A stretch of DNA of 64,000 nucleotides from positions 3,518,132 to 3,582,131 of the forward strand of contig OY282519.1 of NCBI GenBank assembly GCA_958296405.1, written 5' to 3'. Each line of letters opens with the position of its first letter. Position 1 is the stretch's first letter. This DNA comes from an uncultured Pseudomonadales bacterium. Its GTDB lineage: Bacteria; Pseudomonadota; Gammaproteobacteria; Pseudomonadales; Azotimanducaceae. Position numbers and translations under genes: made by a program. The notes below the pieces were generated by a model. It saw only the letters and a program-made list of their open reading frames with translations. It was not told where the DNA came from and made no database searches. Below are positions 1,516 to 42,375 of this stretch, piece by piece.

Positions 1516-4428
1516 TCAGGCGATCTGCCGCTGCACCAAGTCCCGAAACGGGCCTTCGGCTTCCACGAGCTCGTCGAACGTGCCGGATTGCGCGATTTGG
1601 CCATCCTGCAGCACATAGATGCTGTCTGCCATGCGGATGGTCGAGAGCCGGTGCGCACTGACGAAGCGCGTCACGGCAAGCGCGGTCACGCTCTCCATCA
1701 CCCGCGCTTGGCTCTTGTTGTCCAGCCAGTTCGTGGCCTCGTCCAGAAACAACACGCACGGGTCTCGCGCCAGCGCCGCGGCCAACATGATGCGTTGCAC
1801 CTGCCCGCCAGAAAACAGCGCGCTCTCGCCCACAGGCGTGTGCATCTGCATCGGCATGGCGGCGATGTCCTCGTCCACCGCAGCCAAGCGAGCGGCCCGC
1901 CATGCGTCATCCTCCGTCAAATCCGTGGCGACGCCGATGATGTTCTCGAACACGGTGCCGGGCTGCATCGAGGCATCCTGCACCACCATGCCAATCCGGC
2001 TGCGCACGGCGCGTTTGTTGAGGCGCCCCAAGTCCAACCCGTCGTAGCAAACGGTGCCCGCAAGGGGCGTCTCCAACCCCAACGCCAGCCGGAACAAGGT
2101 GCTCTTGCCGGCGCCAGATTCGCCGACGATGGCCACGAACTCGCCGGCCCGCGCATGGATGGACAAGTCTCGCAGCACGAGCGGCCCGTCCTCGCCATAG
2201 CGGAAACTCACATGATCGAGATGCACCTCGCCGCTCAAGTCCGGCGGTGGCTCGCCGGTGTCGCCGCTCTGCGGCGGCGCGTCGAGAATGGGCTTCGTGT
2301 GTTCGTACGCGGGCAACACAGCCACCAACGCGGCCACCGAGCCTCCGAGCCCGGCCACCGCGGCGTAGAACGCCATGAACGCCACGTAAACGGTGAGGAA
2401 ATCGCCAATGCCAAGGCCGGCGCCATCGCGCAGCGTCGCGGCGAACACCGCCGCCGCCGCCAACAGGGGCGCCGCCGTGAGGAACGCGACGAGATGCTCA
2501 TTGATCTGGCCCAACCGCATCTCGGTTTGCTTCTGCGCCCGGTAGTCCTTAGCCCACAACGCGAATCCGATGCCTTCCGACCCGGTGGAGCGCAACTTGC
2601 CGATGCCGTTCAACAACTGCACCAGCTTGCCGGTCAAGCGTTCCGAAATCGTGAGCAGGCGGCGATGATGCGGCAGTTGACGCAGCGCGAACACGAGCGT
2701 CACCGCCGCGGAGCCGAGGCCCAGCGCCAGACCCAACCAGCCGATCGTCGCGTCGTACCAGAACAGGAGCGCAAACGTCGGCAGCAGGAAGATTACCGCC
2801 AACAGCGAGTTGGCCACAACGCCGGAGACTTGGTCGCGCACATGCTGGAAGGCCATGGCGCGCATCGCCAGTTCGCCGGCGGCAAAGCGGCGAAAGAACC
2901 CTTGCGGCTGATTGAGCACCCGATCCCAAACCGCAGCGCCCAGACGGGCGCCGGAGACCGCTTCCACCCGCATCATCGCCATGCCCTGCAAAACGAGGGC
3001 AAGCCCAGTGAAGGCCGCCAGCAGGGCGAGCGTGATGCCGACCTTGGCGAGGAACCAAGGCGAGCCGCTTGGGATCACGCTGTCGACCACGTTGCCGAGG
3101 AAGATGGCGGGGGTGAGCATCAGCAAGCCGAACGCGAGCCCGGCGACGGCAAAGCGCGCCACGTCCCATCCAAGCCCGCGCAGCCCGAAACGCAGCAACG
3201 CGCGCCCGCTGACGCGTTCCGATGGCGGGAACGGGCTGTAGAAACTCTCGGCGTCTTCTTCCAGTTCCGCGGCGAGCCGCGCATTCACCTTGACGGCCCG
3301 GCCCGTGTCTGCATCGATGGCGCGATAACGCCCCAGCGCACCCGGCACCAGCGCGACCGGCGCGCCAGACCCGCGGCGCCGAGCCAACAACGCACCGCTC
3401 TTGCCCAGCCACCAGCGCTCCTCGGCAGGCAGCCGCACTTTGCGCGAGCGCACGCCGGAGATGCGCTGGATATCCGCCAAGTCGGCACCGCGTTCGCCGT
3501 CATCTCCCGCCGCGGAAGCGGCCGGCGGAAACTGGAACTCGATGCCCTCGTGGCGGCCGATCCGCTGCAGGGCGACGCGCAGCGCCGAGCCGTCCTCACC
3601 GCCTCGCGCCGGCGCGGCCCGCTCCGCCTCCAGCACCCCGAACAGCGCATCCCTCGCCCGGGTTTCGCTTTCGCTGCGATGGATGCCTTGGGTTCGCAGC
3701 AGGTTGGCCATGTCCACCAGCATCAGGCGGCGGTGGGTGTCCTCTGCCGCCAACGCCACGCGGTGGAACTCGGACAAGGCCGGCAACAGCAGCCCCTGTG
3801 ACTGCAGCCAGCGCGTGGAGACAACTTGCAAGCGCACCGGGCGAAAGAGCCGCAGCCAGCTGTGCGCGGTGACGGGGATGTAGCCCGGGCCGTCGCCTTG
3901 CGTCTCACCCGTGTCCAGGAAGGCCACGTCCTGCGCCGGCGCTTGCACCCACACGACGCCGCCGCGCGTCGTCAGCACGTTCTCCTCTTCAATGAGCACA
4001 TCGTCGCCGGCGCTCAGGAACCGCTCCGGGCGCGGGCGCGGAATGATGTCGTGCGCGATGGTGGCGGCGATGCCGCGCACCCAAGCCTCAACTTCCCGGG
4101 CCAGCGGTTCGGCGGCGTCCGCCCCCATCACGTCCGCCACGGCCAAGCACCGCACTTCGGTGTCTGGCAAGCCCTTGCCGATGTACACCCCAGCCGGGGC
4201 GTCTGCGTCTCGGGCGACGCCGAAGATGAGCCGCCCCGGCTCCAAGCGCAGCAACTGCTTGAAGTCTGCCGCGGAGCCATCCTCGGACTGCTGCGCCGCG
4301 AACACGTCCACGGCGCCCTTGACGACGTACCACACCATCCCCGGTTCGGAGAGGGCGATGGGCCGGTTGCCACCGCCGACGAGCCGCTCCCCCCGCTGCA
4401 GGGCGATTTCGGCCAGCCGGTCGCTCAT
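1516..4428 (-). CDS. NHLM-type bacteriocin export ABC transporter, permease/ATPase subunit (ABC2)
   Basis: A 970-residue fused permease-ATPase of the NHLM_micro_ABC2 type. The first ~400 residues are a soluble region found in this family and contain no C39 peptidase motif. A six-helix ABC membrane domain follows, then an ATP-binding domain with Walker A GESGAGKST (about 769-777), signature LFSGGQVQR, Walker B VLFLDEA and H-loop SAHRLS. It is the last gene of the minus-strand order HlyD-type adaptor, ABC1, ABC2. Start 4428 follows GGAGG at a normal distance and lies 32 bp after the ABC1 stop. In NHLM systems it works with the peptidase-bearing ABC protein and the adaptor to export leader-cleaved peptides across the inner membrane. 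Its signature motif is SGGQV rather than SGGQR. Confidence 0.9.
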   Translation of the reverse strand: MSDRLAEIALQRGERLVGGGNRPIALSEPGMVWYVVKGAVDVFAAQQSEDGSAADFKQLLRLEPGRLIFGVARDADAPAGVYIGKGLPDTEVRCLAVADVMGADAAEPLAREVEAWVRGIAATIAHDIIPRPRPERFLSAGDDVLIEEENVLTTRGGVVWVQAPAQDVAFLDTGETQGDGPGYIPVTAHSWLRLFRPVRLQVVSTRWLQSQGLLLPALSEFHRVALAAEDTHRRLMLVDMANLLRTQGIHRSESETRARDALFGVLEAERAAPARGGEDGSALRVALQRIGRHEGIEFQFPPAASAAGDDGERGADLADIQRISGVRSRKVRLPAEERWWLGKSGALLARRRGSGAPVALVPGALGRYRAIDADTGRAVKVNARLAAELEEDAESFYSPFPPSERVSGRALLRFGLRGLGWDVARFAVAGLAFGLLMLTPAIFLGNVVDSVIPSGSPWFLAKVGITLALLAAFTGLALVLQGMAMMRVEAVSGARLGAAVWDRVLNQPQGFFRRFAAGELAMRAMAFQHVRDQVSGVVANSLLAVIFLLPTFALLFWYDATIGWLGLALGLGSAAVTLVFALRQLPHHRRLLTISERLTGKLVQLLNGIGKLRSTGSEGIGFALWAKDYRAQKQTEMRLGQINEHLVAFLTAAPLLAAAAVFAATLRDGAGLGIGDFLTVYVAFMAFYAAVAGLGGSVAALVAVLPAYEHTKPILDAPPQSGDTGEPPPDLSGEVHLDHVSFRYGEDGPLVLRDLSIHARAGEFVAIVGESGAGKSTLFRLALGLETPLAGTVCYDGLDLGRLNKRAVRSRIGMVVQDASMQPGTVFENIIGVATDLTEDDAWRAARLAAVDEDIAAMPMQMHTPVGESALFSGGQVQRIMLAAALARDPCVLFLDEATNWLDNKSQARVMESVTALAVTRFVSAHRLSTIRMADSIYVLQDGQIAQSGTFDELVEAEGPFRDLVQRQIA

Positions 4429-4460
4429 GCCATCCTCCACGTCAAGGTTGCCATCGCGCT

Positions 4461-6647
4461 TCAACCGGCGGAAACCAACTCTTGGTAGAGGCCGTCCTCC
4501 GCCATCAGCGTCTGGTGCGTGCCCCGCTGCACCTCGGTGCCAGCATCGAGCACCACAATCAAATCGCTGTCGCGAATCGTGCTCAGGCGATGCGCCACGA
4601 TCAGGCAAGTGCAGCCGCGGCGGCGCAACGCATAGTCGATGCGCACCTCGGTGATGGCATCGAGCGAGCAGGTCGCCTCATCCAAGATGAGGATGGAGGG
4701 GTCGTTCACCAACGCCCGCGCGATCTCCAAGCGTTGCCGCTGGCCGCCGCTGAAGTTGCGCCCGCCTTCCTCCACCGGCGCGTCGTAGCCGAGCGGCCGG
4801 GCGATGATTTCCTCATGGATCTTGGCGTCCCGCGCCGCTGCCGCCAGCATGTGATCCGGCACCTCCGGCACCCACATGGTGAGGTTCTCGCGGATGGTCT
4901 CGGCGAACAGGAAGATCTGCTGATCCACCAAGGACACTGAGTTGGTGAACAGCTCCTGCGGAATGGCGTGGCGCGGGTGCCCGTCGATGAGAATCTCGCC
5001 GGACCACGGCCGCTGCAGCCCCGCCACCAACGCCGACAGCGTGGACTTGCCAGAGCCGCTCGGGCCAACCACCGCCACCCGCTGCCCCGGCTCGATGACG
5101 AGGTTGAAATCCTTTAGCAACGGCTCTTGATTGCGCTGGTAGCCGAACGTGATGTCTTTGAGCTCGATGTGCCCCCGCAGGCGCAAGCGCCCGCGGAACG
5201 TGGCGACCTGCCCCGCCGGCGCACCGGCGGCCGGCTGCTCCACATCTTCCTGCTCCGGCGCGTCGAACACGTCGTCCAGGCGCTGCAAGTCTGCTTCCAG
5301 CATCTGAAACAGGTCCGCCAACTGGATGAAAGCCCCCACCGGACGCAGGAAGCTCACAGCCGCCATGTAGAACGCGGTGAGCGCGCCGACGCTCATGTCG
5401 CCCGACATCACGCGCCAGCCACCCAAGCCCAGCACCGCCGCGGCGGCGAGTATTTGGAAGGCGGCCGGCAACGCCGCATTGACGTAGCCGAGTTCGGCAA
5501 AGCGCTGCCGCGCGGCGAGTTCGCGCGCCTGATACCCCGTCCAGCGAGAGAAGAAGTCATCCTCGGCGGCGGTGGCCTGCAACGCATCGATCTTCGTGAG
5601 GCCGGACATGCCGATGCCCATCAGCATCCCCTGCTCGCGGCGCAGCCGGCGGTTCTCATCCACCCGCACACGCGCCAGCAAGCGCATCAACACCGCGCTC
5701 AACACCGCCAAGCCCACCACCACGCCAGTGAGCGCCGCGTCGTACGCCAGCATCAGACAAAGGAAGGCGACGCTCGTCAGCAACTCGATGCAGATGCCGA
5801 CCAAATGGCGCGTCATCACTTGGGACACCGAATCCAGCAAGTGCAGGCGCGAGGTCAAATCCCCCGACAGGCGGTGGGAGAAGAACCGCATCGGGAGGTG
5901 CAGCAGGCGCGTCATGAAGCGCTCGGCATGGTCGATGGAGAGGCGTATCGAAAGCCGCCTGAGACAGCGTTCGCGCAGCCAAGTGAGCACATAGAGCAAG
6001 GCAGCGGCGCCGACCAACGCGCCCACGATCGCACCGCCCCAAGACGGTTCACGCCCGGCGAGGACGTAATCCACGAACACGCTCACCAAGAACGGCATCG
6101 CCAACGCTGGCAGAGCCAATAGCAGGCCGCAGCCAATGGCGAACGCGAGCGGCTGCTTCACGTCTCGCAGCCACGGCAAGATGCGCTGCAGCAAGCCGGG
6201 CCGCACCCCGCCAGGCTGGAAATCCTCACGCCGCTTGAACGTGAGGGTGACGCCGGTGAAAGCCTTGTCGAACTCGTCCGCGCTGACGCTGCGATGGCCA
6301 TTGCCAGGGTCATTGATGAGGAACCGCCCGCGCCGGAACCCCTCAAGCACCACGAAGTGGTTGAACTCCCAGTAGAGGATCATGGGCAACGGCATGTCGC
6401 GCAGATGATGCGGGTCTCGACGCCATCCTTGCGGCTCCAAACCATACCGGCGCGCGGCGCGAAACACGTCTGCGGCGTTGCAGCCATCCCGACCTACGGC
6501 ACACGCCTCGCGCAGCTCCTCGATGGACACCCAGCGTCCGAAGTGGGCCAGCACGATGCCGAGGCAAGCGGCGCCGCACTCCGTCTGCGTGAGCTGCAAG
6601 AGCACCGGCGTGCGCAAGCGGCGATCCCCACGCGGCTTCGCACCCAT
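4461..6647 (-). CDS. NHLM-type bacteriocin export ABC transporter, C39 peptidase/permease/ATPase subunit (ABC1)
   Basis: A 728-residue protein with an N-terminal C39 cysteine peptidase: catalytic Cys in QTECGAACLG (about Cys24), His in FNHFVVLEG (about His97) and Asp in INDPGNG (about Asp113), all intact. A six-helix transmembrane domain follows (about 160-430), then an ATPase with Walker A GPSGSGKST, signature FSGGQRQRLEIARAL, Walker B LILDEAT and H-loop VAHRLSTI. The peptidase recognises the NHLP leader, cuts at the Gly-Gly or Ala-Gly site and passes the core to the channel. Start ATG 6647 is preferred; a TTG at 6659 in the same frame is possible, and neither has a strong ribosome site. It lies between the adaptor gene (98 bp upstream) and ABC2 (32 bp downstream), so one transcript is likely. 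The call is strong because all catalytic residues are present and two NHLP precursors are nearby. Confidence 0.93.
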   Translation of the reverse strand: MGAKPRGDRRLRTPVLLQLTQTECGAACLGIVLAHFGRWVSIEELREACAVGRDGCNAADVFRAARRYGLEPQGWRRDPHHLRDMPLPMILYWEFNHFVVLEGFRRGRFLINDPGNGHRSVSADEFDKAFTGVTLTFKRREDFQPGGVRPGLLQRILPWLRDVKQPLAFAIGCGLLLALPALAMPFLVSVFVDYVLAGREPSWGGAIVGALVGAAALLYVLTWLRERCLRRLSIRLSIDHAERFMTRLLHLPMRFFSHRLSGDLTSRLHLLDSVSQVMTRHLVGICIELLTSVAFLCLMLAYDAALTGVVVGLAVLSAVLMRLLARVRVDENRRLRREQGMLMGIGMSGLTKIDALQATAAEDDFFSRWTGYQARELAARQRFAELGYVNAALPAAFQILAAAAVLGLGGWRVMSGDMSVGALTAFYMAAVSFLRPVGAFIQLADLFQMLEADLQRLDDVFDAPEQEDVEQPAAGAPAGQVATFRGRLRLRGHIELKDITFGYQRNQEPLLKDFNLVIEPGQRVAVVGPSGSGKSTLSALVAGLQRPWSGEILIDGHPRHAIPQELFTNSVSLVDQQIFLFAETIRENLTMWVPEVPDHMLAAAARDAKIHEEIIARPLGYDAPVEEGGRNFSGGQRQRLEIARALVNDPSILILDEATCSLDAITEVRIDYALRRRGCTCLIVAHRLSTIRDSDLIVVLDAGTEVQRGTHQTLMAEDGLYQELVSAG

Positions 6648-6745
6648 TGAGCCGCTCAACGTTGCTGGCTCAACGCCATGCCCGCGCCATGCCGGCGGTG
6701 GCTGCGCTGCCGAAGCGCGGACCCGCGTTGACGCTCACCAGCGCA

Positions 6746-7645
6746 CTAAGCGCCGCCGCCCGTGAGCAAGAGCGACGCCAGCGATTGCTCGGCAAGCGCC
6801 ACCCGCGCCCGGCCGCCAGCGCCGTCCACCAACCCAGAGGGCAGCGGTTCGCTCAAGGCGAGGCGCAGCAAGTGCGAAGGCGCCCTGGCCGCAAGGCCGA
6901 AATCCTCAAGCCAAGCCGGCGCGGCGACGGGTTGCGGCGACACTTCGAGCACCTCTGCCGCCAGCGTGCGCGGCGCGGACTCGCCGGGCAGCAGCGCGAG
7001 CACTTGCGCCGCCATGCCGGTTTCAACCTGCGCCTCGTCAGCCGGCGACACGAAGGCGAACGCCTGCCAACCTCCCGCGGCGACGGCGCGAACTTGAGCA
7101 ACGGTTTCGCCGGCGCGGACCGCTTGGCCAGCCGCAAGCCGGCGCATCGCCAGCACACCGGCGCGGGGCGCCACGATGAGCTCCGCGGTGGCCAGCTCCG
7201 CCGCGCGCAGTTCGCCACGCGCCGCCGCGAGCAGTTGCCGGCGCAGGCTGGCGTCGCCTTCCGCCGCCGACATGCCATCTTCAACCACGGCCACGAGCCG
7301 CCGCGCGATCCGCGCTTGACGCTCCGCCTCCGGCAGCCGCACCTGGGCGATGGCTTGGCCAGCCTGCACGGCATCGCCAACGTCGGCGAGCAGTTCGACG
7401 ACGACGCCAGAGACTGGCGACGCCACCGCGACGCGCTCCCCAGGCTGCAGCAGCACCGCCGCGACGGCGACGCTGCGTTGCACCGTGCCGAAGACGCCCC
7501 ACAGGAGCAACACGGACAAGGCGACGCCAAGGCCGGCCAGCGCGACCCACTCATGCGGCGCGGTGACTTGGAGCCGGGCGTCCAAAGGTTCCGGGCGCGA
7601 GCGCCGGGCAACCGCCTTATCTCTGAAAACTTTGCTGCGGAACAC
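6746..7645 (-). CDS. NHLM bacteriocin system secretion protein, HlyD family
   Basis: A 299-residue membrane-fusion protein. One N-terminal membrane helix (about 32-52, ALAGLGVALSVLLLWGVFG) is followed by a biotinyl-lipoyl half (VAVASPVSGVVVELLADVGD), a short helical hairpin, the second lipoyl half (IVAPRAGVLAMRRLAAGQAV) and a beta-barrel region. It is shorter than classical HlyD, as is usual for the NHLM adaptor family. It would link the two ABC subunits to the periplasm or to an outer-membrane channel that is not encoded here. It starts with GTG after GGGAAGGG and is first in the exporter operon, with a TATACT -10 box about 30 bases upstream. It diverges from the VOC gene, so the two units share one regulatory region. 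Confidence 0.87.
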   Translation of the reverse strand: MFRSKVFRDKAVARRSRPEPLDARLQVTAPHEWVALAGLGVALSVLLLWGVFGTVQRSVAVAAVLLQPGERVAVASPVSGVVVELLADVGDAVQAGQAIAQVRLPEAERQARIARRLVAVVEDGMSAAEGDASLRRQLLAAARGELRAAELATAELIVAPRAGVLAMRRLAAGQAVRAGETVAQVRAVAAGGWQAFAFVSPADEAQVETGMAAQVLALLPGESAPRTLAAEVLEVSPQPVAAPAWLEDFGLAARAPSHLLRLALSEPLPSGLVDGAGGRARVALAEQSLASLLLTGGGA

Positions 7646-7674
7646 GCGCCCTTCCCACCAGCAGTGGCGTTCAG

Positions 7675-7704
7675 AGTATAGCCACTTGGCAACGGTTCGG
7701 TCAG
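7675..7704 (-). promoter_or_regulatory. promoter of the NHLM exporter operon
   Basis: On the minus strand a good -10 TATACT (7675-7680) lies 18 bp from a weak -35 CTGACC (7699-7704). Transcription would begin about 20-25 bases before the GTG start of the adaptor gene. The rest of 7705-7974, up to the divergent VOC gene, shows no further gene or clear hairpin. Confidence 0.5.
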
Positions 7705-7974
7705 CCGGTACAGGCTGAGGCGCACAGCGATGGAGCCGCGGGCGCGTCTGCGGGCCGAAACGCCGTGGTTAGCAAATGATCTGTCCGCTTCTGCAACACA
7801 TGGACTGTGCGCTTGCGGAAGACCGTGGAGGGCCGTGAAGAAGGCGCCCCGGGTGGCTTGGGATGAAAACGCCCGCGCAGGCTGCTATCGTCGCAACATG
7901 GCTGCCTGACCAGCAAGTTTTGGCCAGCAAGCGTCTGGAAGGTCTGCGAGCTCCACAACCCAAGGAGGTTCCCC

Positions 7975-8694
7975 ATGTCCAGCAGCCCGACCCTGCATCC
8001 CGATGGCGTACACCATCTCGCACTCCTCACCACCGACATCAAGGCCCAGCTCCAATTCTTCAACGACGTGCTGGGGCTGCCCTTGAAGGCCCTGTATTGG
8101 ATGCATGGGGTGAAGGGCTATTTCCACGGCTTTCTGGAACTGGCGCCAGATTCCCATGTGGCCTTCGTCGCCGGACCCGGCGTCTCCGGGGACATCCAGT
8201 ACGGCGTCACCCATTCCGGCAGCCCAATGGCACCCGGCACGGGCGGCACGATGCAGCATGTCGCCTTCCATGTGGACGGCTTCGACGATCTGCTTGCCAT
8301 GCGCGACCGCATTCGCTCCCGCGACGTTCACGTCCTGGGCCCGATTGACCACGGCTTCTGCCAATCGATCTACTTCGCCGGCCCCGAATCCCTGAGCCTT
8401 GAGGTGTCCTACGGCCAGCACATCGACGCCAACGCTTGGATCGATCCAGAAGTTGTGGCGCTGTGCGGCATCAGCGACGAGGAACTGGCCGCTTTGAAGT
8501 CTCCCGCGCCCTATCGGCGGCCAGCCGAACCGGTGCCGCAGCCGCCCATGGACACGGCGGCACCACGCATGCACCTGCCCCCGGAACAGTATCGATTGCT
8601 GCTGGGCGCGAGCGACCAGGACGTCTGGGACCGGATGAGCGAAACCACACCGCCGGTTGTCGTTGCGCCTACCGCGGCGGCGGTGAACGAATGA
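7975..8694 (+). CDS. VOC-superfamily (glyoxalase/ring-cleavage dioxygenase-like) metalloenzyme, possible peptide-tailoring enzyme
   Basis: A 239-residue protein. Residues 8-150 form a vicinal-oxygen-chelate unit with the expected metal ligands: His in VHHLALLTTDI, His in MQHVAFHVDG and Glu in LSLEVSYG. The C-terminal ~90 residues are Pro-rich and not recognised. The ribosome site AAGGAGG is very strong. The gene diverges from the exporter operon and ends about 150 bp before the first precursor peptide gene, which has its own promoter. VOC enzymes use Fe, Mn, Ni or Zn for dioxygenation, isomerisation or thiol transfer. By position it could modify the precursor peptides, but that is inference; it could equally be an unrelated small-molecule dioxygenase or lyase. 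Confidence 0.72.
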   Translation: MSSSPTLHPDGVHHLALLTTDIKAQLQFFNDVLGLPLKALYWMHGVKGYFHGFLELAPDSHVAFVAGPGVSGDIQYGVTHSGSPMAPGTGGTMQHVAFHVDGFDDLLAMRDRIRSRDVHVLGPIDHGFCQSIYFAGPESLSLEVSYGQHIDANAWIDPEVVALCGISDEELAALKSPAPYRRPAEPVPQPPMDTAAPRMHLPPEQYRLLLGASDQDVWDRMSETTPPVVVAPTAAAVNE

Positions 8695-8742
8695 CCGGAA
8701 AACGGCGGAGCGGCGGGGGCCGGCACCGCGGCTCGAATACGT

Positions 8743-8771
8743 TTGCCGCATCCATGTTGCCGCGATACGGT
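8743..8771 (+). promoter_or_regulatory. promoter of precursor gene 1
   Basis: A -35 TTGCCG (8743-8748) and -10 TACGGT (8766-8771) are separated by 17 bp. The same arrangement occurs upstream of the second precursor gene (13558-13586) with the same spacing, and the bases between promoter and start codon are also clearly related. Conservation between the copies is the main support. Confidence 0.5.
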
Positions 8772-8846
8772 TGGGATGTGGACGCGAGGCGGCGGCTCAC
8801 CGCGTCGCGTCGCGGTACGGAAACACCGGAGCAAAAGGGGAACGCC

Positions 8847-9155
8847 ATGGATAGCGCGAAAACCCACGAGCAGATGCGAGCGGAACTCATCGACAAGGCC
8901 GCCGGAGACCAGCACTTCCGAGCGCGGCTCATCGAGCAGCCGAAAGCCGCCATCAAGGAGGCCCTAGGCCTTGACCTGCCGGAGTCCGTGGCGGTGCAGG
9001 TTCACGAGGACACGGCGCTGACGGCGCACCTCGTGCTGCCACCGAGCAGCAGCCTGACCGACACGGAGTTGGAGGACGTCGCCGCCGGCCACACCTATCG
9101 AACCGGCATCTACCAAGAGGGCCCGCCGGAAGAGCACACGCACTGGCGGCCTTAG
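8847..9155 (+). CDS. NHLP-family natural product precursor peptide 1
   Basis: A 102-residue precursor. Residues 1-81 are a nitrile-hydratase-alpha-like leader: MRAELIDKAAGDQHFR, then LIEQPKAAIKEALGLDLP, VAVQVHED and a helix LTDTELEDVAAG. This ends in Ala-Gly where most relatives have Gly-Gly. The predicted core is 21 residues, begins HTYRTGIYQ and ends EEHTHWRP. It has no Cys or Ser, so it cannot form lanthionines, sactionines or thiazoles. A start with good ribosome site (AAGGGGAACGCC) gives 8847. The leader differs from that of precursor 2 at about 12 of 82 positions, the last being the His after the cut. It is the expected substrate of the C39 ABC transporter encoded at 4461-6647. What the core becomes is unknown. 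Confidence 0.92.
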   Translation: MDSAKTHEQMRAELIDKAAGDQHFRARLIEQPKAAIKEALGLDLPESVAVQVHEDTALTAHLVLPPSSSLTDTELEDVAAGHTYRTGIYQEGPPEEHTHWRP

Positions 9156-9325
9156 GCGGTTAAACGCCGTCGGCGCGTCCGCACGCCCAAAGTGCTGTGG
9201 GGCTCACCGGCCATCGAGACAATCCCTGGTCAGCCAGCCATGTTGGCGACCTCGGCAGCCTGCGCCGGCGTTCTCATCCCCACAGACTGACGGCGGACGC
9301 CCGTTGCCGGTGCTGACGTATGGCG

Positions 9326-9369
9326 CAACAGAATCGTTGTCAACCGTTTTGTTGACAACGATTCTGTTG
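9326..9369. repeat. perfect 19-bp inverted repeat, 6-nt loop
   Basis: The arm CAACAGAATCGTTGTCAAC (9326-9344) is repeated exactly in reverse complement at 9351-9369 around the loop CGTTTT. There is no T-run after the right arm, so a standard terminator is unlikely on the plus strand. It lies in the gene-poor 9156-9936 gap. It could be a regulator operator, a mobile-element end or a recombination site; nothing further can be read. Confidence 0.9.
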
Positions 9370-9601
9370 ACGCCTGCTGCCGGTGTCTTTCCTAGCAAAA
9401 GGCGAAGCAATGAGACCGAACGCAGGTGCTTGGGTGTCCGGCGATGGCGTATTCATCAGTTGAATATGCCGTGCCAGCACCTTTTGGCCGGACGCACCGG
9501 ACGCGGGATTTCCAGTGGGCGAATGTCCGCCAATCGTTGGTTCGCATGGTTCCACAGGCGTCCGCGCCAGTCCGCGAATACGCCCGACGGCCCGGTCTAA
9601 G

Positions 9602-9800
9602 GCACGGCTAGACGTCGGCAGCTCGCCTTTGTCCTTTCGCTCGGCCATCGTCCAAGCCTCGAACGCGTCGCGGGCATCGGCAATGGCGGCCACCACAGTC
9701 TCGCCATGCAGCTAGGGAGATCGGGCACGGTCACAAGATAGCCGCCGCCTTCATCAACGGGAAGCGGATCAATGCGAATGACGTGGTTCTCGAATCTCAT
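9602..9800 (-). pseudogene. broken HicB-like antitoxin gene
   Basis: From ATG 9800 the frame reads a HicB-type start, MRFENHVIRIDPLP, then GGGYLVTVPDLPSCMA, the partial RNase H-like fold of HicB. Near 9700 the reading frame breaks: the expected continuation ETVVAAIADARDAFEAW and then AERKDKGELPT is found in another frame. No recognisable C-terminal DNA-binding part follows. Upstream, a ~27-codon open stretch ends in a TGA overlapping this ATG (ATGA), as in toxin-antitoxin operons, but no intact HicA is present. The unit therefore looks like a dead toxin-antitoxin remnant. The remaining parts of 9156-9936 hold the inverted repeat and no other convincing gene. Confidence 0.65.
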
Positions 9801-9936
9801 TGCGTTGCCTCGATCAACCTGACCGATTGCCGGATACAGACCAGCTTGATCAGCTTGTCGAACGGGCCGCATGCAACACCGAGCCGTCAACTCGCGTCGG
9901 GCCGAGAGTCTGCTATGTCTGTGGCATCATTCGTCC

Positions 9937-11055
9937 ATGAGCTGGTCCTTTAAGGTCGTCCACTTCGCCGATCTGCACCTTGACGCAGGATTTGCTTGGT
10001 CGGGCGCGTTCAGCGATGCCGCAAGGCACCGTCGCCAAGGATTGCGCGAGACGCTGCGTCGCATCGTCTGCGTGGCGGTAGATGTGAAGGCGGATGCGAT
10101 CTTCTGCGCCGGCGACCTATATGAACATGAGCGGGCTACCCCGGACACCGCTGCGTTCCTCAAGCGCACTTTCGCGGACGTCGCGCCAATGCGCGTCTTC
10201 CTGGCACCAGGCAATCATGATTGGTATGGATCGATGAGCATTTACGCGCTCAACGATTGGAGTGAGAACGTCCATGTGTTCCAAGAACCGCGTTTGCAGC
10301 CTATCGACTTGGCCCCGGGACTCACTCTGTGGGGTGGCGCACATTTGGCCCCGCAAAAGGCGGACAACTTCCTGAAGGACTTCCGCACGACCGGCAGTGG
10401 AGTGCATTTGGCACTCTTCCACGGATCCGAAAACGCATGGTTCTTGAAACAAGAGGAAGGGAAGGCGCGACATGCCCCGTTCGAGGCTGCTGAGATTCCA
10501 AAGGCAGGGCTTGATCATGCGTTCATGGGGCACTACCACCGACCTCAAGATGCCGCTCACCACACTTATCCCGGCAACCCCGATCCACTGGCTTTCGGCG
10601 AGGAGGGCGAGCGGGGTGCCGTGATTGCGACGATCCAAAGCACCGGTACCGTTTGCCGGGAACGGCGGCTCGTTGGCTCGTTGGCTGTCCACGACGTGCA
10701 TCTTGACGTGAGCGGATGTGGCTCACAGCAGGCAGTGCGCGACCGCCTTGCGGGTAGCGTAAAGGGGCTGCGGGGAGTGGCGAGGCTTAACGTGCATGGC
10801 GACCTCGACCCAGATGTCGACTTGCGCGATGACGACTTGCGCGAGGTGCTGGTCGAGTGCTTCGACGCCGCAGTCATCCGCTATGGTGACGTGCGTCCCG
10901 GCTACGACATTGACGCCATCAAGCTCGAGCGCACTGTGCGGGGGCGGTTCGTAACCGATGTTCTGGCGTCCGACTTGCCGAAAGACGAGCGTCGGCGCGT
11001 GTTGACCGCCGGCCTGAGAGCCTTGGATGGCCGTTCTGATCTGGACGTGCGCTGA
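9937..11055 (+). CDS. YhaO/SbcD-like DNA repair metallophosphoesterase
   Basis: A 372-residue calcineurin-type nuclease with all five metal motifs: FADLHLD (Asp12, His14), CAGDLYE, PGNHDWY, ALFHG and MGHYHR. The N-terminal ~230 residues are the catalytic domain and the rest a capping and partner-binding region. ATG 9937 places the first motif at the usual distance from the N-terminus, although no clear ribosome site precedes it; a longer start at 9871 is possible. Its stop overlaps the start of the next gene (TGATG), so the two are translationally coupled. With that gene it forms an SbcD/SbcC-like (Mre11/Rad50-type) complex expected to process DNA ends. The pair is less GC-rich by eye than its surroundings and sits between the two copies of a duplication, which suggests acquisition. 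Confidence 0.85.
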   Translation: MSWSFKVVHFADLHLDAGFAWSGAFSDAARHRRQGLRETLRRIVCVAVDVKADAIFCAGDLYEHERATPDTAAFLKRTFADVAPMRVFLAPGNHDWYGSMSIYALNDWSENVHVFQEPRLQPIDLAPGLTLWGGAHLAPQKADNFLKDFRTTGSGVHLALFHGSENAWFLKQEEGKARHAPFEAAEIPKAGLDHAFMGHYHRPQDAAHHTYPGNPDPLAFGEEGERGAVIATIQSTGTVCRERRLVGSLAVHDVHLDVSGCGSQQAVRDRLAGSVKGLRGVARLNVHGDLDPDVDLRDDDLREVLVECFDAAVIRYGDVRPGYDIDAIKLERTVRGRFVTDVLASDLPKDERRRVLTAGLRALDGRSDLDVR

Positions 11056-13268
11056 TGCAATTCGAGTCTGTCACCGCCTTCGCCTTCGGCCCGTTCTACA
11101 ACAAGACATTAGACCTCGTGCCCGGCATGAACGTCGTCTATGGCCCAAACGAATCCGGCAAATCGAGCTGGCATGCCGCGCTCTACGCTGGCCTATGCGG
11201 GATAAGGCATGGAAAGGGTCCGCCAAGCAAGCAGGAGAAGGAGTTCGAGAGACGCCGAAAACCTTGGCAAGGCACCGACGGATGGGACGTGAGCGTTGTG
11301 GTCTCTCTTGCGGATGGGCGCCGGATCGCACTGCGTCAGGATCTTGCCGCCAAGGCTGGTCAAGCGCAGGACGCAGATTTGGCGGGCAAGGATTACTCGG
11401 CGGAGGTCAATCACGACGGCACGCTGGATGGTGCGCGTTGGCTCGGGCTGAACAGGGTGTCATTCCTAAACACCGGCTGCGTTCGCCAAGCAGAGATGCT
11501 CAGCGTACGTGAGGGTGCAGATAGCCTTCAGAACGCATTGCAGAAGGCCGCGGACAAAGCCGACAAGGACGCTACAGCCGCCCAAGCTCTGATCGAGTTG
11601 GCCAACTATCGGAAGGTGCAGATCGGTTCCCTCAAAGCGCACACTAAGCCGCGCCGCGTCGCAATGAAGGAGGTTGATGACGCCCGCCGTCTGTTAGAAG
11701 ACGCCAAGGGCCACTTGGCGGAATACGTAGAACGACAACACGAAGCCCAGGAGTTGGAAGCGGAAGTCGAAGCGCATCAGCGGCAGATACGAGCGGTACG
11801 AGCGCTCCAAGCTGAGAGGATTGCATCGGAGGCCACTGCTAGATTGCAGCGTGTGCGTGACTTGAGTGAACCATCTGTCGATGGGCCTCCAGCCCCATCC
11901 GTGGATGATGCGGACCTCGCAGATCAAGTGGCGGCGGCGATAGCGGCCTGGGATGGCGCACCGGATCCGCAGGGTCCACAAGGCGCGACGTACGAGGAAC
12001 TGGACGAGCAACGATCGGCTGTGCTGGCCCAGAAGTGCCAGCTCGCTTCGGTTCAACCAAGGCAGCGGCTCAAAGCGTCGCCACTGCTATTCGGGCTCGG
12101 CCTACTGGTCGTTGCTGGCACGTGTTTCTGGGCCCAAACGATGGTGTTGATGTTCCTCGGCGGGATGTGCGTAGCCGCGGGGATCGGAACCGTCTGGTTG
12201 GGAATAGCCCAGGCCAAGCGCACAGCCGCCGAGACACATGCGGCGCAGCTAGTCGTCTTGACCGAACGCCTTAGCCGCTTAGAAGACCAGATCAACCGCC
12301 GCCGTGCGGACGACTTGGCTTACAGCGACGCCATGCGGCGGCGTCAGGCGGACCAACAAACAGTACACCGTGTAGCCACAGCCGCAGGTGTTCAGGAGTC
12401 CGACACTAGCGCACAAGTTCGCGCCCTCCGTGACTGGCAGGAGAGGCGGCTAGCGCGCTTGGAACAGCTCGCCGAAGACACCAAGCGATGGGGCGAGCTG
12501 CAGAGTGCGCTGGCTGGACAATCGCGTGAGGAGATCGAGCGCGTAGCGGATACCCAGCGGGCGGAAGCAGACGCGCTGCTGCGCGAGTTCGATGAGGCAC
12601 AACTAGACGCTGCACGCACGGTCGTCGACGATTTGCCTCAGCTCTTGCATGCGGAGCAGCAAGCACAGGGGCGACTGGATCGAAAACGAGGCAGCCTCCG
12701 TGCGTTCGCCGATGGCATGCCGAGCGTTGCCGATGCGGAGGATGACTATGAAGATGCCAAACGACGATTGGAACGTCTTAACGAACTCGACGGGACGTTG
12801 GCGACGGCAACTGAGTTTCTTGAGAAGGCTCAGGAACGTGTGCATCGGGACGTCGCCGGCGTGTTGCGGCGTACGCTCTTGGAGTGGCTGCCACGAGTCA
12901 CCGGCGGACGCTACACCGACTGCCGAATCGACCCGCAAACCTTGTCGGTGGAAGTGCGTACCCAGCAAGGAGACTGGCGGAACGCCGAACTGCTGTCGCA
13001 CGGCACGGCGGAACAGCTATACCTGCTGCTTAGGTTGGCGCTATGCCGACATCTGGTAGCGGACAACGAAACCTGCCCGTTGATCCTTGATGATCCTGTC
13101 AGCGCCTGCGATGCCGACCGACAGCGCTTGATTCTGGAGACGCTGCTGCAGATCAGCCCATCTACGCAAGTGATTCTCTTTACCCATGATGATGACGTTC
13201 GGAAATGGGGGCTTCGGCGACTCGCCGCCGAGAACAATAGCCAAGTTGTCGAGCTGCCGAGCGCCTAA
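11055..13268 (+). CDS. YhaN/SbcC-like AAA ATPase with central membrane segments
   Basis: A 737-residue SMC-like ATPase. The Walker A YGPNESGKS is at about 29-37; long coiled-coil stretches follow (about 180-300 and 400-590). A hydrophobic pair (about 342-360 and 364-388, starting SPLLFGLGLLVVAG) could form a membrane hairpin, as in Bacillus YhaN-type proteins. The C-terminal ATPase half has signature LLSHGTAEQLYLL (about 643-655), Walker B LILDDPVSACD (about 675) and the switch His in LFTHDD. It would open or tether DNA ends for the coupled nuclease and may hold the complex at the membrane. Classical SbcC is longer and has a zinc hook; no CxxC hook is visible here. A defence role is conceivable but not shown. 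Confidence 0.83.
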   Translation: MQFESVTAFAFGPFYNKTLDLVPGMNVVYGPNESGKSSWHAALYAGLCGIRHGKGPPSKQEKEFERRRKPWQGTDGWDVSVVVSLADGRRIALRQDLAAKAGQAQDADLAGKDYSAEVNHDGTLDGARWLGLNRVSFLNTGCVRQAEMLSVREGADSLQNALQKAADKADKDATAAQALIELANYRKVQIGSLKAHTKPRRVAMKEVDDARRLLEDAKGHLAEYVERQHEAQELEAEVEAHQRQIRAVRALQAERIASEATARLQRVRDLSEPSVDGPPAPSVDDADLADQVAAAIAAWDGAPDPQGPQGATYEELDEQRSAVLAQKCQLASVQPRQRLKASPLLFGLGLLVVAGTCFWAQTMVLMFLGGMCVAAGIGTVWLGIAQAKRTAAETHAAQLVVLTERLSRLEDQINRRRADDLAYSDAMRRRQADQQTVHRVATAAGVQESDTSAQVRALRDWQERRLARLEQLAEDTKRWGELQSALAGQSREEIERVADTQRAEADALLREFDEAQLDAARTVVDDLPQLLHAEQQAQGRLDRKRGSLRAFADGMPSVADAEDDYEDAKRRLERLNELDGTLATATEFLEKAQERVHRDVAGVLRRTLLEWLPRVTGGRYTDCRIDPQTLSVEVRTQQGDWRNAELLSHGTAEQLYLLLRLALCRHLVADNETCPLILDDPVSACDADRQRLILETLLQISPSTQVILFTHDDDVRKWGLRRLAAENNSQVVELPSA

Positions 13269-13279
13269 CAGGTTGAGCC

Positions 13280-13450
13280 CCCGCGACCAGCCCCAAGCCG
13301 CAGTCCGAACGTATGACGAGCTGGTGACGCGGTTCGGCGAGAGCAACGACCCCCAAAAATGCGACTGCAGGTCGCCAACGCACTGTTCAACAAGGGCGCG
13401 GCACTTGGCCAGATGAACCGGCCCCAAGCGGCAATCAGAACGTACGACAC
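13280..13450 (+). pseudogene. fragment of a tetratricopeptide-repeat gene
   Basis: Two TPR-like units can be read: QPQAAVRTYDELVTRFGESN, then after a one-base frame change in the CCCCAAAAATG run, VANALFNKGAALGQMN and RPQAAIRTYD. The DNA for the two AxRTYD units is itself similar. Neither frame has a start, and the second runs out of repeat after RTYD, so this is a remnant of a longer repeat protein. It lies just after the YhaN-like gene and before the promoter of precursor gene 2. Confidence 0.6.
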
Positions 13451-13557
13451 CGCGACTGGCTGCTGTACGCCGGGGATTCGCCTCCACGCCCTCGGCGGCG
13501 TCCTGCCGCGGGGCGGCGGCAGTGGAGCGGTCGGGTCGGACCCGCCGCACAAACCGC

Positions 13558-13586
13558 TTGCCACATCCGCTCTACCGCAGTATTGT
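13558..13586 (+). promoter_or_regulatory. promoter of precursor gene 2
   Basis: A -35 TTGCCA (13558-13563) and -10 TATTGT (13581-13586) with a 17-bp spacer. It is closer to consensus than the matching promoter of gene 1. The leader sequence between it and the start codon is also shared (AGGCGGCGGCT, GGTACGGAAACAC), so promoter and untranslated region were duplicated with the gene. Confidence 0.55.
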
Positions 13587-13660
13587 CCGGGTGTTGGCGA
13601 GAGGCGGCGGCTGCCGCCTTGCGCCACGGTACGGAAACACGAGACCAAGAGGAGATTGCC

Positions 13661-13960
13661 ATGGATAGCGCAAAAACCCACGACGAGATGCGGGCGGAAC
13701 TCATCGACAAGGCCGCCGGGGATCAAGACTTCCGGGCGCGGCTCATCGAGCAGCCAAAGGCTGCCATCAAGGAGGCGCTGGGGCTTGACCTGCCGGATTC
13801 AGTGGCGGTGCAGGTCCACGAGGAGTCGGCGCTCACGGCGCACATTGTGCTGCCGCCGAGTGGCGGCCTCACCGACGAGGACTTGGAAGGCGTGGCTGCC
13901 GGCCACATCATGCGGGGTGGCTTCTACCAAGACCGCGAGGTGATCGAGCACACGCACTAA
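13661..13960 (+). CDS. NHLP-family natural product precursor peptide 2
   Basis: A 99-residue paralogue of the precursor at 8847-9155. Residues 1-81 are the leader (MDSAKTHDEMRAELIDKA, LIEQPKAAIKEALGLDLP, LTDEDLEGVAAG), ending again in Ala-Gly. The 18-residue core begins HIMRGGFYQD and ends IEHTH. Shared between the two cores are an Arg-x-Gly, an aromatic or aliphatic residue followed by Tyr-Gln, an acidic residue and the motif Glu-His-Thr-His. Like copy 1 it lacks Cys and Ser. The ribosome site AGAGGAGATTGCC is strong. The core has diverged much more than the leader, the pattern expected when one enzyme and export set serves variable products. Confidence 0.92.
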   Translation: MDSAKTHDEMRAELIDKAAGDQDFRARLIEQPKAAIKEALGLDLPDSVAVQVHEESALTAHIVLPPSGGLTDEDLEGVAAGHIMRGGFYQDREVIEHTH

Positions 13961-39859: not shown

Positions 39860-41122
39860 ATGATCCGCACGGCGCTGCATGCGCTGGGCACACTCCTGCC
39901 GGCGGCAGCCCTTGCGGCAACGCCCACGGCCGTGCCCGTGCTCACCCTCGCCGAGGCGGAGCGCTTGGCGCTAGCCGAAGAACCGGGGCGCGAAGCGCTC
40001 TTGGAGCGGGCGCACGCACTCTCGGACACCGCGGTCGCCGCGGCGCAGCTACCCGATCCGCAACTGCATTTCGGCGCCGCCAATCTGCCCCTTGAAACTG
40101 GCGACTTCCGCACTGAAGGCATGACGCACATGCGCCTCGGCGTGCGCCAAGCCTTTCCGCCGCGGGCGCAGCGGCGCGCCGCCAGCGAGCGGGCGTTGGC
40201 CGGCAGCCGCGAACAACGCGCCGCCGCCGAAGCGCGGCAGCGAGAGGCATTGAAGGCCGTGCGCAACGCATGGCTGGACGTCTACGCCGAAGAGCAGAGC
40301 CTCGCGCTGGTGGCGGAGTCGGAAGCCTTGTTTGCGGATTTGGTGGCGGTGGCGCGCTCGCAGTACGCCGTTGGCCGGCGCAACCAGCAGGATGTGCTGC
40401 GCGCGGAACTCGAGCAGAGCGGCCTCGACGGACGGCAAATCGCCATCGAGCAACGCCAGTCTGTGGCGCGGTCGCGCTTGGCGAGATGGGTGGGCGCCCA
40501 TGCCCAAGCGCCGCGGATGGCCGAGTTGCCAGCTTGGACGCCGCCGCCGGCGTTGGCGGCGTTGCATGCCCGCTTGGCGACGCACCCTGCCGTGGCGGCG
40601 GCCGCAGCCCGCCTTGAGGCCGCCGAGGCCGCCCTCGACATGGCGCGGTCGAGCTATCGGCCAAGCTGGAGCGTGGATGTGAGCTATGCCTATCGGGATG
40701 GCGCCCTGCCCAACGGCGCCCCGCGTTCAGACCTCTTCAGCGTCACGGCCAGCGTGGGGCTGCCCTTGTTCACGGCCAATCGGCAGGACCGGCGCGTGGC
40801 GGCGGCCGAGGCCGAGCAGCGCGCCGCCCAAGCAAGCCTGGACGATCTGCGGCGCGGGCTGGAAGGCGAATTGAGCGGCGAGTATGGCCGCTGGCAGGCA
40901 CTCACCCGCCGCGTCGCGCTCCACGAAGGCACCATCCGCCCGCAGGCCGACGCCAACGCTGCCGCGGCATTGAGCTCATACCGCAGCGAAGCCGGCGATT
41001 TCGCGGACATGATGCGCGCCTACATCGACGATTTGCAGGTGCGCCTCGTCAGCGTGGCATTGCGCGTGGAACGTCGCCGCAGCCACGCGGAACTCGCCTA
41101 CCTCGGCGGCTTCCCGCTGTGA
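39860..41122 (+). CDS. TolC-family outer-membrane factor of a Cu/Ag efflux system (CusC-like)
   Basis: A 420-residue outer-membrane efflux protein. A signal peptide (ALHALGTLLPAAALAATP) is followed by the paired helical and barrel repeats of the family: LTLAEAERLALAEEPGREAL, DPQLHFGAANLPL and VRQAFPPRAQR in the first half, then HPAVAAAAARLEAAEAALDM, FSVTASVGLPLFTANRQDR and YRSEAGDFADMMRAYIDDLQ in the second. It forms the exit duct for the pump. Its stop overlaps the next gene by four bases. The insertion element ends about 107 bp upstream, so its natural promoter may be changed. Confidence 0.88.
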   Translation: MIRTALHALGTLLPAAALAATPTAVPVLTLAEAERLALAEEPGREALLERAHALSDTAVAAAQLPDPQLHFGAANLPLETGDFRTEGMTHMRLGVRQAFPPRAQRRAASERALAGSREQRAAAEARQREALKAVRNAWLDVYAEEQSLALVAESEALFADLVAVARSQYAVGRRNQQDVLRAELEQSGLDGRQIAIEQRQSVARSRLARWVGAHAQAPRMAELPAWTPPPALAALHARLATHPAVAAAAARLEAAEAALDMARSSYRPSWSVDVSYAYRDGALPNGAPRSDLFSVTASVGLPLFTANRQDRRVAAAEAEQRAAQASLDDLRRGLEGELSGEYGRWQALTRRVALHEGTIRPQADANAAAALSSYRSEAGDFADMMRAYIDDLQVRLVSVALRVERRRSHAELAYLGGFPL

Positions 41123-42366
41123 CGAAGGCACTGGGGCTGGGCGTTGCGGCGCTGGCCATCGGCATTGCGGCCGGCTATTGGCTTGCGCCGGCCACGCCCG
41201 CTAGCGCCGCGGCGCAACCCGCCGAGCGCCAAATCCTCTATTGGGTGGCGCCCATGGACAAGAACTACCGCCGCGACCGGCCCGGCAAGTCGCCGATGGG
41301 CATGGACTTGGTGCCCGTCTACGCAGAAGACCAGGCGCCGGCAGACACGGGCGTGGTGAGCATCGACCCGGCCGTGGTGCAGAACCTAGGGCTGCGCAGC
41401 GCCCCGGCGCAACGCGGCCCGCTGCCGCGCCGCATCGAAACCGTGGGCTACGTGCAGTACGACGAATCGGTGATGCATCACATCCACACCCGCGTGGAGG
41501 GTTGGATCGAATCGCTGCATGTGCGCGCCGCCGGCGATCCGGTGGCGAAGGGGCAACTCCTGTTTGAGATCTATTCGCCGACCCTCGTGAACGCGCAGCG
41601 CGAGTACCTCACGGCGCTGACTGGCGGGCGCCCGAACATGGTGGTGGCGTCGCGGGAACGGCTGGCCGCGCTCGGCATGCCGCAAGCCGAAATCGCCGCG
41701 CTGGAGAACGCCAAGACGCCGCGCCAGCGGGTGCGCATCTACGCGCCGGCGGATGCCGTCACCACGCACTTGGGGGTGCGCGAGGGCATCTTCGTCACGC
41801 CGGCCGCGCACGTCATCTCCATGGCGGACTTGAGCCGCGTGTGGGTGCTCGCCGAAGTGTTCGAGCGCCAGACGGCGTGGGTGGCGGTGGGGCAACGCGC
41901 CGAGGTGGAACTGGATTATCTGCCCGGCCAGCGCTGGGACGGCGCCGTGGACTACGTTTATCCAGATCTGCACCCGGTGACGCGCACCCTGCGCGTGCGC
42001 ATCGGCTTCGACAACGCCGGCGAAGCGCTGCGGCCAAACATGTTCGCGCGGGTGGTGCTGCTCGGCGCCGACACCGAGCCGGTGGTACACATTCCGCGGG
42101 AGGCGCTCATTCGCGGCGGCGCGGTGGACCGGGTGGCCCTCGATCTCGGCGGCGGGCGCTTTCGCGCCGTGCCGGTGGCGGCCGGCATGGAAGCGGGCGA
42201 CCGCGTGGAGATCCGCTCTGGGCTCAAGGCCGGAGACCGAGTGGTCGTTTCCGGACAGTTCCTCATCGATTCAGAATCCAACCTGGAGCGGGCCCTGGCC
42301 CGCGCCGGCAGCGGCGAGGCGTCCCCACCGCTGGCGCAGCCGACGGCCGGCCCCCACGCACACTAG
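41119..42366 (+). CDS. cusB: CusB-type periplasmic adaptor of heavy-metal RND efflux
   Basis: A 415-residue membrane-fusion protein. After one N-terminal helix (GLGVAALAIGIAAGYWLA) comes a heavy-metal-binding segment, YWVAPMDKNYRRDRPGKSPM then GMDLVPVYAED, the Met/His metal-capture motif seen in CusB-type adaptors. Lipoyl halves follow (HHIHTRVEGWIESLHVRAAG and the RIYAPADAVTTHLGV region), with barrel and membrane-proximal domains. Periplasmic Cu(I) or Ag(I) would pass from the segment to the pump. It starts with GTG overlapping the previous stop by four bases. Confidence 0.9.
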   Translation: MTKALGLGVAALAIGIAAGYWLAPATPASAAAQPAERQILYWVAPMDKNYRRDRPGKSPMGMDLVPVYAEDQAPADTGVVSIDPAVVQNLGLRSAPAQRGPLPRRIETVGYVQYDESVMHHIHTRVEGWIESLHVRAAGDPVAKGQLLFEIYSPTLVNAQREYLTALTGGRPNMVVASRERLAALGMPQAEIAALENAKTPRQRVRIYAPADAVTTHLGVREGIFVTPAAHVISMADLSRVWVLAEVFERQTAWVAVGQRAEVELDYLPGQRWDGAVDYVYPDLHPVTRTLRVRIGFDNAGEALRPNMFARVVLLGADTEPVVHIPREALIRGGAVDRVALDLGGGRFRAVPVAAGMEAGDRVEIRSGLKAGDRVVVSGQFLIDSESNLERALARAGSGEASPPLAQPTAGPHAH

Positions 42367-42375
42367 GCGCCGCCA

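Follow-up and report, generated by a model that had tools for sequence, protein, structure and literature searches.

Export locus and precursors in the window

We analysed an export locus for peptides with nitrile hydratase leader peptide (NHLP) leaders, that is, for proteusin-type members of the ribosomally synthesized and post-translationally modified peptides (RiPPs), in an uncultured Pseudomonadales bacterium. The window, the whole 64,000-nucleotide stretch of DNA analysed, is G000:C1:3518132-3582131, where G000 denotes the source genome, assembled as one contig of 3,825,434 bases (completeness 98.3%, tool estimate); G008 denotes its sister genome. As an earlier note on this DNA had proposed, the window carries a C39 peptidase–ATP-binding cassette (ABC) protein, a second ABC protein, a HlyD-type adaptor and two NHLP precursors (window coordinates, strand in brackets):

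1516-4608 (-): ABC2, second NHLP exporter ABC permease/ATPase; TIGR03797 is the best match of the library, 697.9 bits (cut-off 709.4)
4461-6659 (-): ABC1, C39 peptidase-ABC protein; TIGR03796, 902.3 bits (cut-off 853.3); Peptidase_C39 (PF03412), 112 bits
6746-7645 (-): HlyD-type periplasmic adaptor; TIGR03794 is the best NCBIfam match, 85 bits (cut-off 156.2); HlyD_3 (PF13437) over cut-off
8847-9155 (+): NHLP precursor 1, 102 amino acids; TIGR03793, 67.3 bits (cut-off 50.9); predicted core HTYRTGIYQEGPPEEHTHWRP
13661-13960 (+): NHLP precursor 2, 99 amino acids; TIGR03793, 68.8 bits (cut-off 50.9); predicted core HIMRGGFYQDREVIEHTH

ABC1, which exceeds the TIGR03796 cut-off, is predicted to cleave leaders after an (A/G)G site and to export the product. 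ABC2 scores below its family cut-off and the adaptor well below its own, which we read as divergence because each has the corresponding family as its best match and the gene order is that of a nitrile hydratase leader microcin (NHLM) exporter. The true start of ABC2 is likely near 4428, at a Met aligned with homologues of 964-985 amino acids, and the gene lies mostly outside the stretch starting at 4461 that the earlier note gave. Across G000, TIGR03797 gave ABC2 699.5 bits, ABC1 337.8 bits and the next gene 303.5 bits; the window ABC2 is the sole NHLM-type ABC2 in this genome, and no other NHLP exporter was found there.

No maturation enzyme had been recognized in this island, which holds on closer inspection and extends further for two families: YcaO (PF02624) and LANC-like (PF05147) each gave no match across the single-contig genome. 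By its predicted gene content, the G000 system falls outside the lanthipeptides (LanM/LanC), the azol(in)e-bearing thiazole/oxazole-modified microcins (TOMMs) and the srp clusters described below.

Fifteen precursors with one core pattern

Of 16 TIGR03793 matches in G000, 15 exceed the cut-off of 50.9, and these full precursors lie at five loci: a ten-gene array (2558394-2563261), the two in the window, and singles at 1294963, 2040527 and 3196244. The sixteenth match, below cut-off (2283311), is a leader without a core. TIGR03793 exceeded its cut-off in 12 of the 97 genomes searched (own included), and none of 14 control genomes gave a match.

The cores share a sparse and strict pattern. In all 27 full precursors (15 in G000, 12 in G008) the (A/G)G is followed by a His (His1), and every core of both genomes contains a Tyr and a His-x(1,2)-His (15/15 and 12/12), in the stricter form H-x-H in 14 of the 15 G000 cores. 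The columns of the core that never vary in G000 are those of His1, the Tyr and one HxH histidine; mean pairwise identity is 19% in the core outside these columns versus 73% in the leader. A Gly-Gly-type site followed by a hypervariable core, as in NHLP/proteusin precursors, is present, with cleavage predicted at that site. When residues were shuffled within cores, the strict ordered motif was found in a mean of 0.24 and a maximum of 3 of 15; since the precursors are paralogues, the shuffles alone are no proof of selection, and the main weight falls on the contrast with the remaining core positions. Cys is absent from the 293 residues of the 15 G000 cores, leaving no thiol for azoline or lanthionine chemistry.

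Other NHLP precursors that were read have cores ending in -LCCCW or -LSCCW, Cys-rich tails or unrelated cores. A search model of the G000 core type, from an alignment comprising 13 of 15 G000 precursors and a single one of the 12 from G008, matched 10 genomes of the class (369 searched) and 15 of the phylum (398 searched), each count including our own. Three of the nine class genomes besides our own were read to the core (G274, G163 and G290), and all three have another core type. In the remaining 6 class and 14 phylum genomes, most matches stop before the core, in frames of ~170 amino acids or longer that we take for nitrile hydratase-type proteins; one match extends to model position 89 of 98 (G758) and another to 83 (G654).

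Three options had been offered for the product of the island: an unmodified peptide, a product made by an enzyme elsewhere, or a new RiPP class. The second and third are favoured by the results below; confinement to the island does not stand, as the window holds 2 of the 15 precursors.

A distant operon with a putative prenyltransferase and cyclase

Candidate tailoring genes do occur at other precursor loci, at 2.04 Mb (this section) and 2.56 Mb. The first locus is a four-gene operon (G000 2037356-2040769), 1.5 Mb from the window, on one strand and with short gaps:

match at 2040527: NHLP precursor (TIGR03793); core HLQTAGIYGPSRIVPHSH
G000:2039358-2040395: ABBA-fold protein, 345 amino acids, with the predicted fold of ABBA aromatic prenyltransferases
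between the ABBA-fold protein and the FPP synthase: predicted class II terpene cyclase, 324 amino acids, by fold and catalytic Asp motif
2037356-2038228: extra farnesyl diphosphate (FPP) synthase (FPPS), 290 amino acids, a polyprenyl synthase; NF045485, 292.8 bits (cut-off 275)

The gene order, precursor-ABBA-cyclase-FPPS, is the same in G008, with two precursors there, and the core of the G000 operon precursor has the pattern of the other 14. The predicted model of the 345-residue protein has the alpha-alpha-beta-beta repeats of a PT-barrel, with PagF (PDB 5tu6) among its fold matches, and suggests an ABBA aromatic prenyltransferase, prenyl transfer being putative. The 324-residue protein combines a predicted alpha-toroid fold with a DxDD-type motif that includes the catalytic Asp; a close fold match is MstE, a protein of ~350 residues solved with prenylated benzoates, according to the entry titles.

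Co-occurrence in relatives

Across the 97 genomes, all searched with both the NHLP precursor and the ABBA models, the ABBA protein (E<1e-100) was found in 11 of the 12 with NHLP precursors over cut-off and in none of the 85 others (Fisher P = 1.2e-13; at genus level 3/3 versus 0/70, P = 1.6e-5). The one NHLP genome lacking it, G006, is 64% complete; a lone weak match in G015 (4.9e-4) was left uncounted, and a plasmid collection gave no match to one ABBA homologue. A search of relatives for a conserved tailoring gene, which the earlier note had proposed as a check, was thus positive, the gene being that of the ABBA-fold protein.

In nine genomes (G001-G005, G007, G014, G040 and G046), a single frame encodes both an NHLP leader and the cyclase domain, within srp-type loci:

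L084:5398-6696: NHLP leader-class II cyclase fusion, DLDST
L086:12391-13692: NHLP leader-class II cyclase fusion, DLDST
L088:5033-6331: NHLP leader-class II cyclase fusion, DLDST; others in further loci

Read in all of these genomes but G003, the motif is DLDST in seven of the nine and DLDSS in G007. The same nine genomes carry the ABBA gene and a precursor, ending in -LCCCW in eight and in -LSCCW in G040; the G014 locus has YcaO, desaturase and Trp-halogenase-family genes by Pfam, and other loci have them by eye. Beyond this group, a divergent ABBA homologue in G163, which belongs to a different family of the class, scored E 2.4e-15 against a model built without it, and its gene overlaps the adjoining gene for a DTDDTA cyclase by one base. 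G274 encodes an ABBA homologue as well (E 1e-101); exporter and YcaO-like genes were recognized there by eye.

An oxygenase beside the precursor array

The second locus with a candidate tailoring gene is that of the ten-precursor array:

2563578-2564489: 2-oxoglutarate (2OG)-Fe(II) oxygenase, directly after the array; PF13640, 68.3 bits (cut-off 27)

The protein keeps the H-x-D...H...R residues in alignment and is prolyl 4-hydroxylase (P4H)-like (best PDB match 4iw3, E 7.7e-5). Array and oxygenase are also adjacent in G008; none of the remaining ten genomes whose NHLP precursors pass the cut-off has a match to the oxygenase. G000 holds six near-full-length paralogues (37-44% identity), and the paralogue regions looked at contain Asn synthase, PqqD and sulfotransferase genes together with lasso-type precursors, which carry what we take to be a PWAKPT-like leader motif. 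We take the family to be one that tailors RiPPs in this lineage; Tyr as a target common to the 2OG-linked lasso-type precursors is suggestive only. The lasso-like clusters (L123-L127; G000:C1 95-103 kb and 831-893 kb) contain Asn synthase, PqqD, HPr-kinase-like, sulfotransferase and, by eye, glycosyltransferase-like genes, and their 2OG oxygenases bear TPR N-termini.

Proposed pathway

From the observed gene content, core pattern, single exporter, co-occurrence, predicted folds and catalytic motifs, we lean, with modest confidence, towards a dispersed proteusin system whose terpenylated, perhaps hydroxylated, peptides are exported through the window, which is probably the export and leader-cleavage hub for 15 precursors from five loci. 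All 15 are placed in one pathway because they share a leader, a core motif and a single exporter, and such dispersal would account for an island without its own enzyme.

In the scheme that we infer for substrate pairing, acceptor residue, reaction order and product, the NHLP leader would deliver each precursor to the ABBA-fold peptide prenyltransferase, which would place a C15 farnesyl group on a conserved aromatic side chain (Tyr most likely, else His), with FPP supplied by the dedicated extra FPP synthase; the class II enzyme would cyclise the farnesyl on the peptide; the array 2OG-Fe(II) oxygenase would hydroxylate some cores; and the C39-ABC protein would then cut the leader after the G, freeing the N-terminal His, with exit via ABC1/ABC2/HlyD. 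Alternatively, FPP would be cyclised first and then transferred, as in drimenyl diphosphate synthases; we favour cyclisation after transfer because of the fold match to MstE, of similar size and solved with prenylated benzoates, and because of the leader-carrying cyclase in relatives.

Several points weigh against this pathway. The ABBA and cyclase genes lie 1.5 Mb away, and neither the window nor the 40 kb around the array was found to contain one, so the case that these enzymes act on the window precursors depends on the shared leader, the shared core pattern and the single exporter; the precursor-ABBA-cyclase-FPPS order is known from two close genomes only, and the prenylation and cyclisation chemistry is itself something we infer. 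In Foldseek, the ABBA model has modest TM-scores (0.39-0.54, query-normalised; root-mean-square deviation 6.7-10.3 Å, 34 matches), and the protein has no Pfam match (three members at E 0.05, two more at E 1; nine members at E 10 yielded four single hits, no prenyltransferase among them), no NCBIfam match (three members) and no PDB sequence match. Cyclase homologues fall below the Pfam SQHop_cyclase_C cut-off of 26.1 (16.7 in G008, 16.0 in G163 and 15.2-24.6 in three leader-fused proteins), and the G000 cyclase, scanned against NCBIfam only, gave one match, far under cut-off. As for relatives, the 30 kb inspected in G274 revealed no cyclase, and the second locus of G005 (L087, G005:C21, of the multinuclear non-haem iron oxidative enzyme (MNIO) type) has two ABBA genes and no cyclase; the ABBA protein also occurs in relatives with -LCCCW or Cys-rich cores lacking Tyr or HxH, which makes the acceptor residue uncertain; and, among the genomes read, the His/Tyr core type was in no third genome beyond G000 and G008.

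More tentatively, we regard as quite possible a RiPP-terpenoid class, with this system as its first branch to be seen, in which NHLP peptides are farnesylated by a sequence-novel ABBA enzyme and cyclised on-peptide (by a cyclase with an NHLP leader docking domain in relatives), which includes the srp peptides, with an overlooked terpene step, and in which the 15 G000 cores are exported as copper-capable, terpene-tagged peptides with an N-terminal His. If this is so, ribosomal peptides and terpenoids are united in one leader-guided pathway, a sequence-novel family of peptide prenyltransferases has been missed by the profile libraries searched, and the srp peptides of sponge symbionts can be tested for a step that went overlooked. 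It would also show that an NHLP export locus with no neighbouring enzyme is not necessarily an orphan and that precursors and enzymes can be spread chromosome-wide.

Alternative explanations

The prenyl/terpene operon might act on its own precursor only, with the window and array precursors merely hydroxylated by the array 2OG enzyme and exported. The place of that enzyme directly after the array in both G000 and G008 fits this, as do its conserved residues, its P4H-likeness and the presence of its family in lasso-like clusters. We consider it unlikely all the same: the operon precursor has the core pattern of the other 14, so that a separate chemistry for 1 of 15 is less simple, and the adjacency is found in two close genomes only, with no match to the enzyme in the other ten NHLP genomes.

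The peptides might also be exported unmodified, as the first of the earlier options had it, with the N-terminal His, HxH and Tyr forming a copper site of the histidine-brace type, known from lytic polysaccharide monooxygenases (LPMOs), in secreted metal-binding products. The His that follows the cleavage site in every full precursor (27 of 27), the identity of the invariant core columns and the absence of Cys all speak for such a site, and the window contains a CusB/CusA-type pair of copper/silver efflux genes (41119-45525). This pair, however, is ~27 kb from the precursors, with no shown link to them, and metal binding and modification are mutually compatible; as a full account, the unmodified peptide seems improbable, for it leaves the ABBA/cyclase/FPPS operon and the 2OG oxygenase without a role.

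A small non-peptide terpenoid as the product of the ABBA protein, cyclase and FPP synthase, with an NHLP precursor nearby by coincidence, we judge very unlikely: drimenyl diphosphate synthases do use free FPP (entry titles), but the ABBA protein is in 11 of 12 NHLP genomes and 0 of 85 others, the cyclase shares one frame with an NHLP leader in nine genomes, and the close fold match MstE acts on a prenylated acceptor (entry titles).

One more gene adjoins the exporter and precursor 1:

7975-8694 (+): VOC/glyoxalase-fold protein, between HlyD and precursor 1; PF00903, 46.5 bits

As the maturation enzyme it is hardly credible, and we judge it a bystander by sequence comparison: it does sit between exporter and precursor 1 in both G000 and G008 and is weakly associated with NHLP genomes (7/12 versus 19/85, P = 0.014), but its homologues (E<1e-50; in 26 of 97 genomes including our own, 19 of them without NHLP precursors over cut-off) are common, at 48-61% identity, in relatives without NHLP precursors over cut-off, and where the gene occurs in NHLP genomes other than G000 and G008, which is the case in five, it is on a different contig from the precursors (fragmented assemblies). 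No fixed place for it in NHLP loci of other genera was seen. Of 31 named loci with a homologue, only the sister genome's has NHLP precursors; among the other 30, L054 alone has a leader match, a 204-residue frame with two matching stretches that we take as a nitrile hydratase.

Relation to known systems

Prochlorosins comprise many precursors with one leader type for few enzymes, and their precursors and enzymes are dispersed. The G000 system resembles them in its many one-leader precursors for few enzymes and differs in having no LanC-type enzyme, another leader family and another core chemistry. RiPP prenylation is known from cyanobactins. It is also described for the lanthipeptide enzyme MppC, as leader-dependent peptide prenylation with a preference for geranyl diphosphate (GPP) (PMC12715784). 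The ABBA protein is like the cyanobactin and lanthipeptide prenyltransferases (PagF, MppC) in its fold likeness to PagF; unlike them, it has no library sequence match, is linked with both a class II cyclase and an FPP synthase, and goes with an NHLP leader. The 324-residue protein, for its part, shares fold and catalytic Asp motif with monodomain or HAD-fused class II cyclases (MstE, AsDMS/drimenol synthase), and unlike these it shares its operon with a RiPP precursor or, in relatives, is fused to an NHLP leader; it has no HAD phosphatase domain.

With proteusins and the NHLP/NHLM systems (TIGR03793, TIGR03796, TIGR03797 and TIGR03794; Haft et al. 2010, PMC2887384) the G000 system shares the leader family, the (A/G)G site, a hypervariable core and the C39-ABC/ABC2/HlyD exporter. 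It departs from them in precursors spread over five loci, a fixed Cys-free H1..Y..HxH core, and candidate ABBA, class II cyclase and 2OG tailoring enzymes, no YcaO or LanC-type enzyme being found. The srp clusters of marine-sponge microbiomes encode a SrpE core ending in -LCCCW, the YcaO protein SrpC and the brominase SrpI (PMC10286304, PMC10858898); the word "terpene" is absent from the main text of the latter. Our srp-like relatives combine an -LCCCW (eight) or -LSCCW (one) precursor with the ABBA protein and the NHLP-leader-fused cyclase; unlike srp, G000 is without YcaO and has His/Tyr cores. Among the papers listed in the literature searches, from a body that most subscription papers lie outside, none names a class II terpene cyclase in the pathway of an NHLP peptide or any other RiPP. 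NHLP precursors have been linked with cupin-type enzymes in sponge metagenomes (PMC9426513), and L159 (G290), where an NHLP precursor lies near a cupin/JmjC-type oxygenase-like gene (by eye), recalls that cupin-4 pairing.

Other genes and minor observations

Two further candidate maturases were rejected. In the window and 13 kb upstream, a single called frame has a radical-SAM-like CxxxCxxC, at window -394 to 703, adjoining the exporter; it belongs to the PA0069 family (464.4 bits versus a cut-off of 360), which we do not know as a RiPP family. The LanM, YcaO or radical SAM gene beside the window that would have spoken against an enzyme-free island thus did not appear, LanC-type and YcaO genes being absent; co-inheritance of the PA0069 neighbour with the precursors was not tested. 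The only MNIO gene in G000 (2208384-2209178) is 74 kb from the nearest TIGR03793 match.

Between the two window precursors lies a pair of genes that we read as an insertion outside the RiPP system:

9871-13268 (+): SbcD/Mre11-like phosphoesterase and SbcC/Rad50-like ATPase

Their GC content at third codon positions (GC3) is lower, and the ATPase matches LmuB (Lamassu) of a defence library at 63.3 bits; the equivalent place in G008 holds pieces of a Rieske-type oxygenase (by eye).

Among minor observations, the core-less leader match is a 68-residue free-standing NHLP leader domain (G000:C1:2283305-2283511), present in G008 too. Precursor 1 of G008 (L082, G008:C1 about 2670570-2671124) ends after 47 leader residues, and one window precursor is intact there. 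L084 includes a fatty-acid desaturase with a GlnE-like part, and L087 has three NHLP precursors with short Cys-containing cores beside the MNIO gene, with a second NHLM exporter by eye. The single precursor at 3196178-3196483 is overlapped at its end by a HEAT-repeat-like gene (by eye; G000:C1:3195510-3196238), which G008 has retained.

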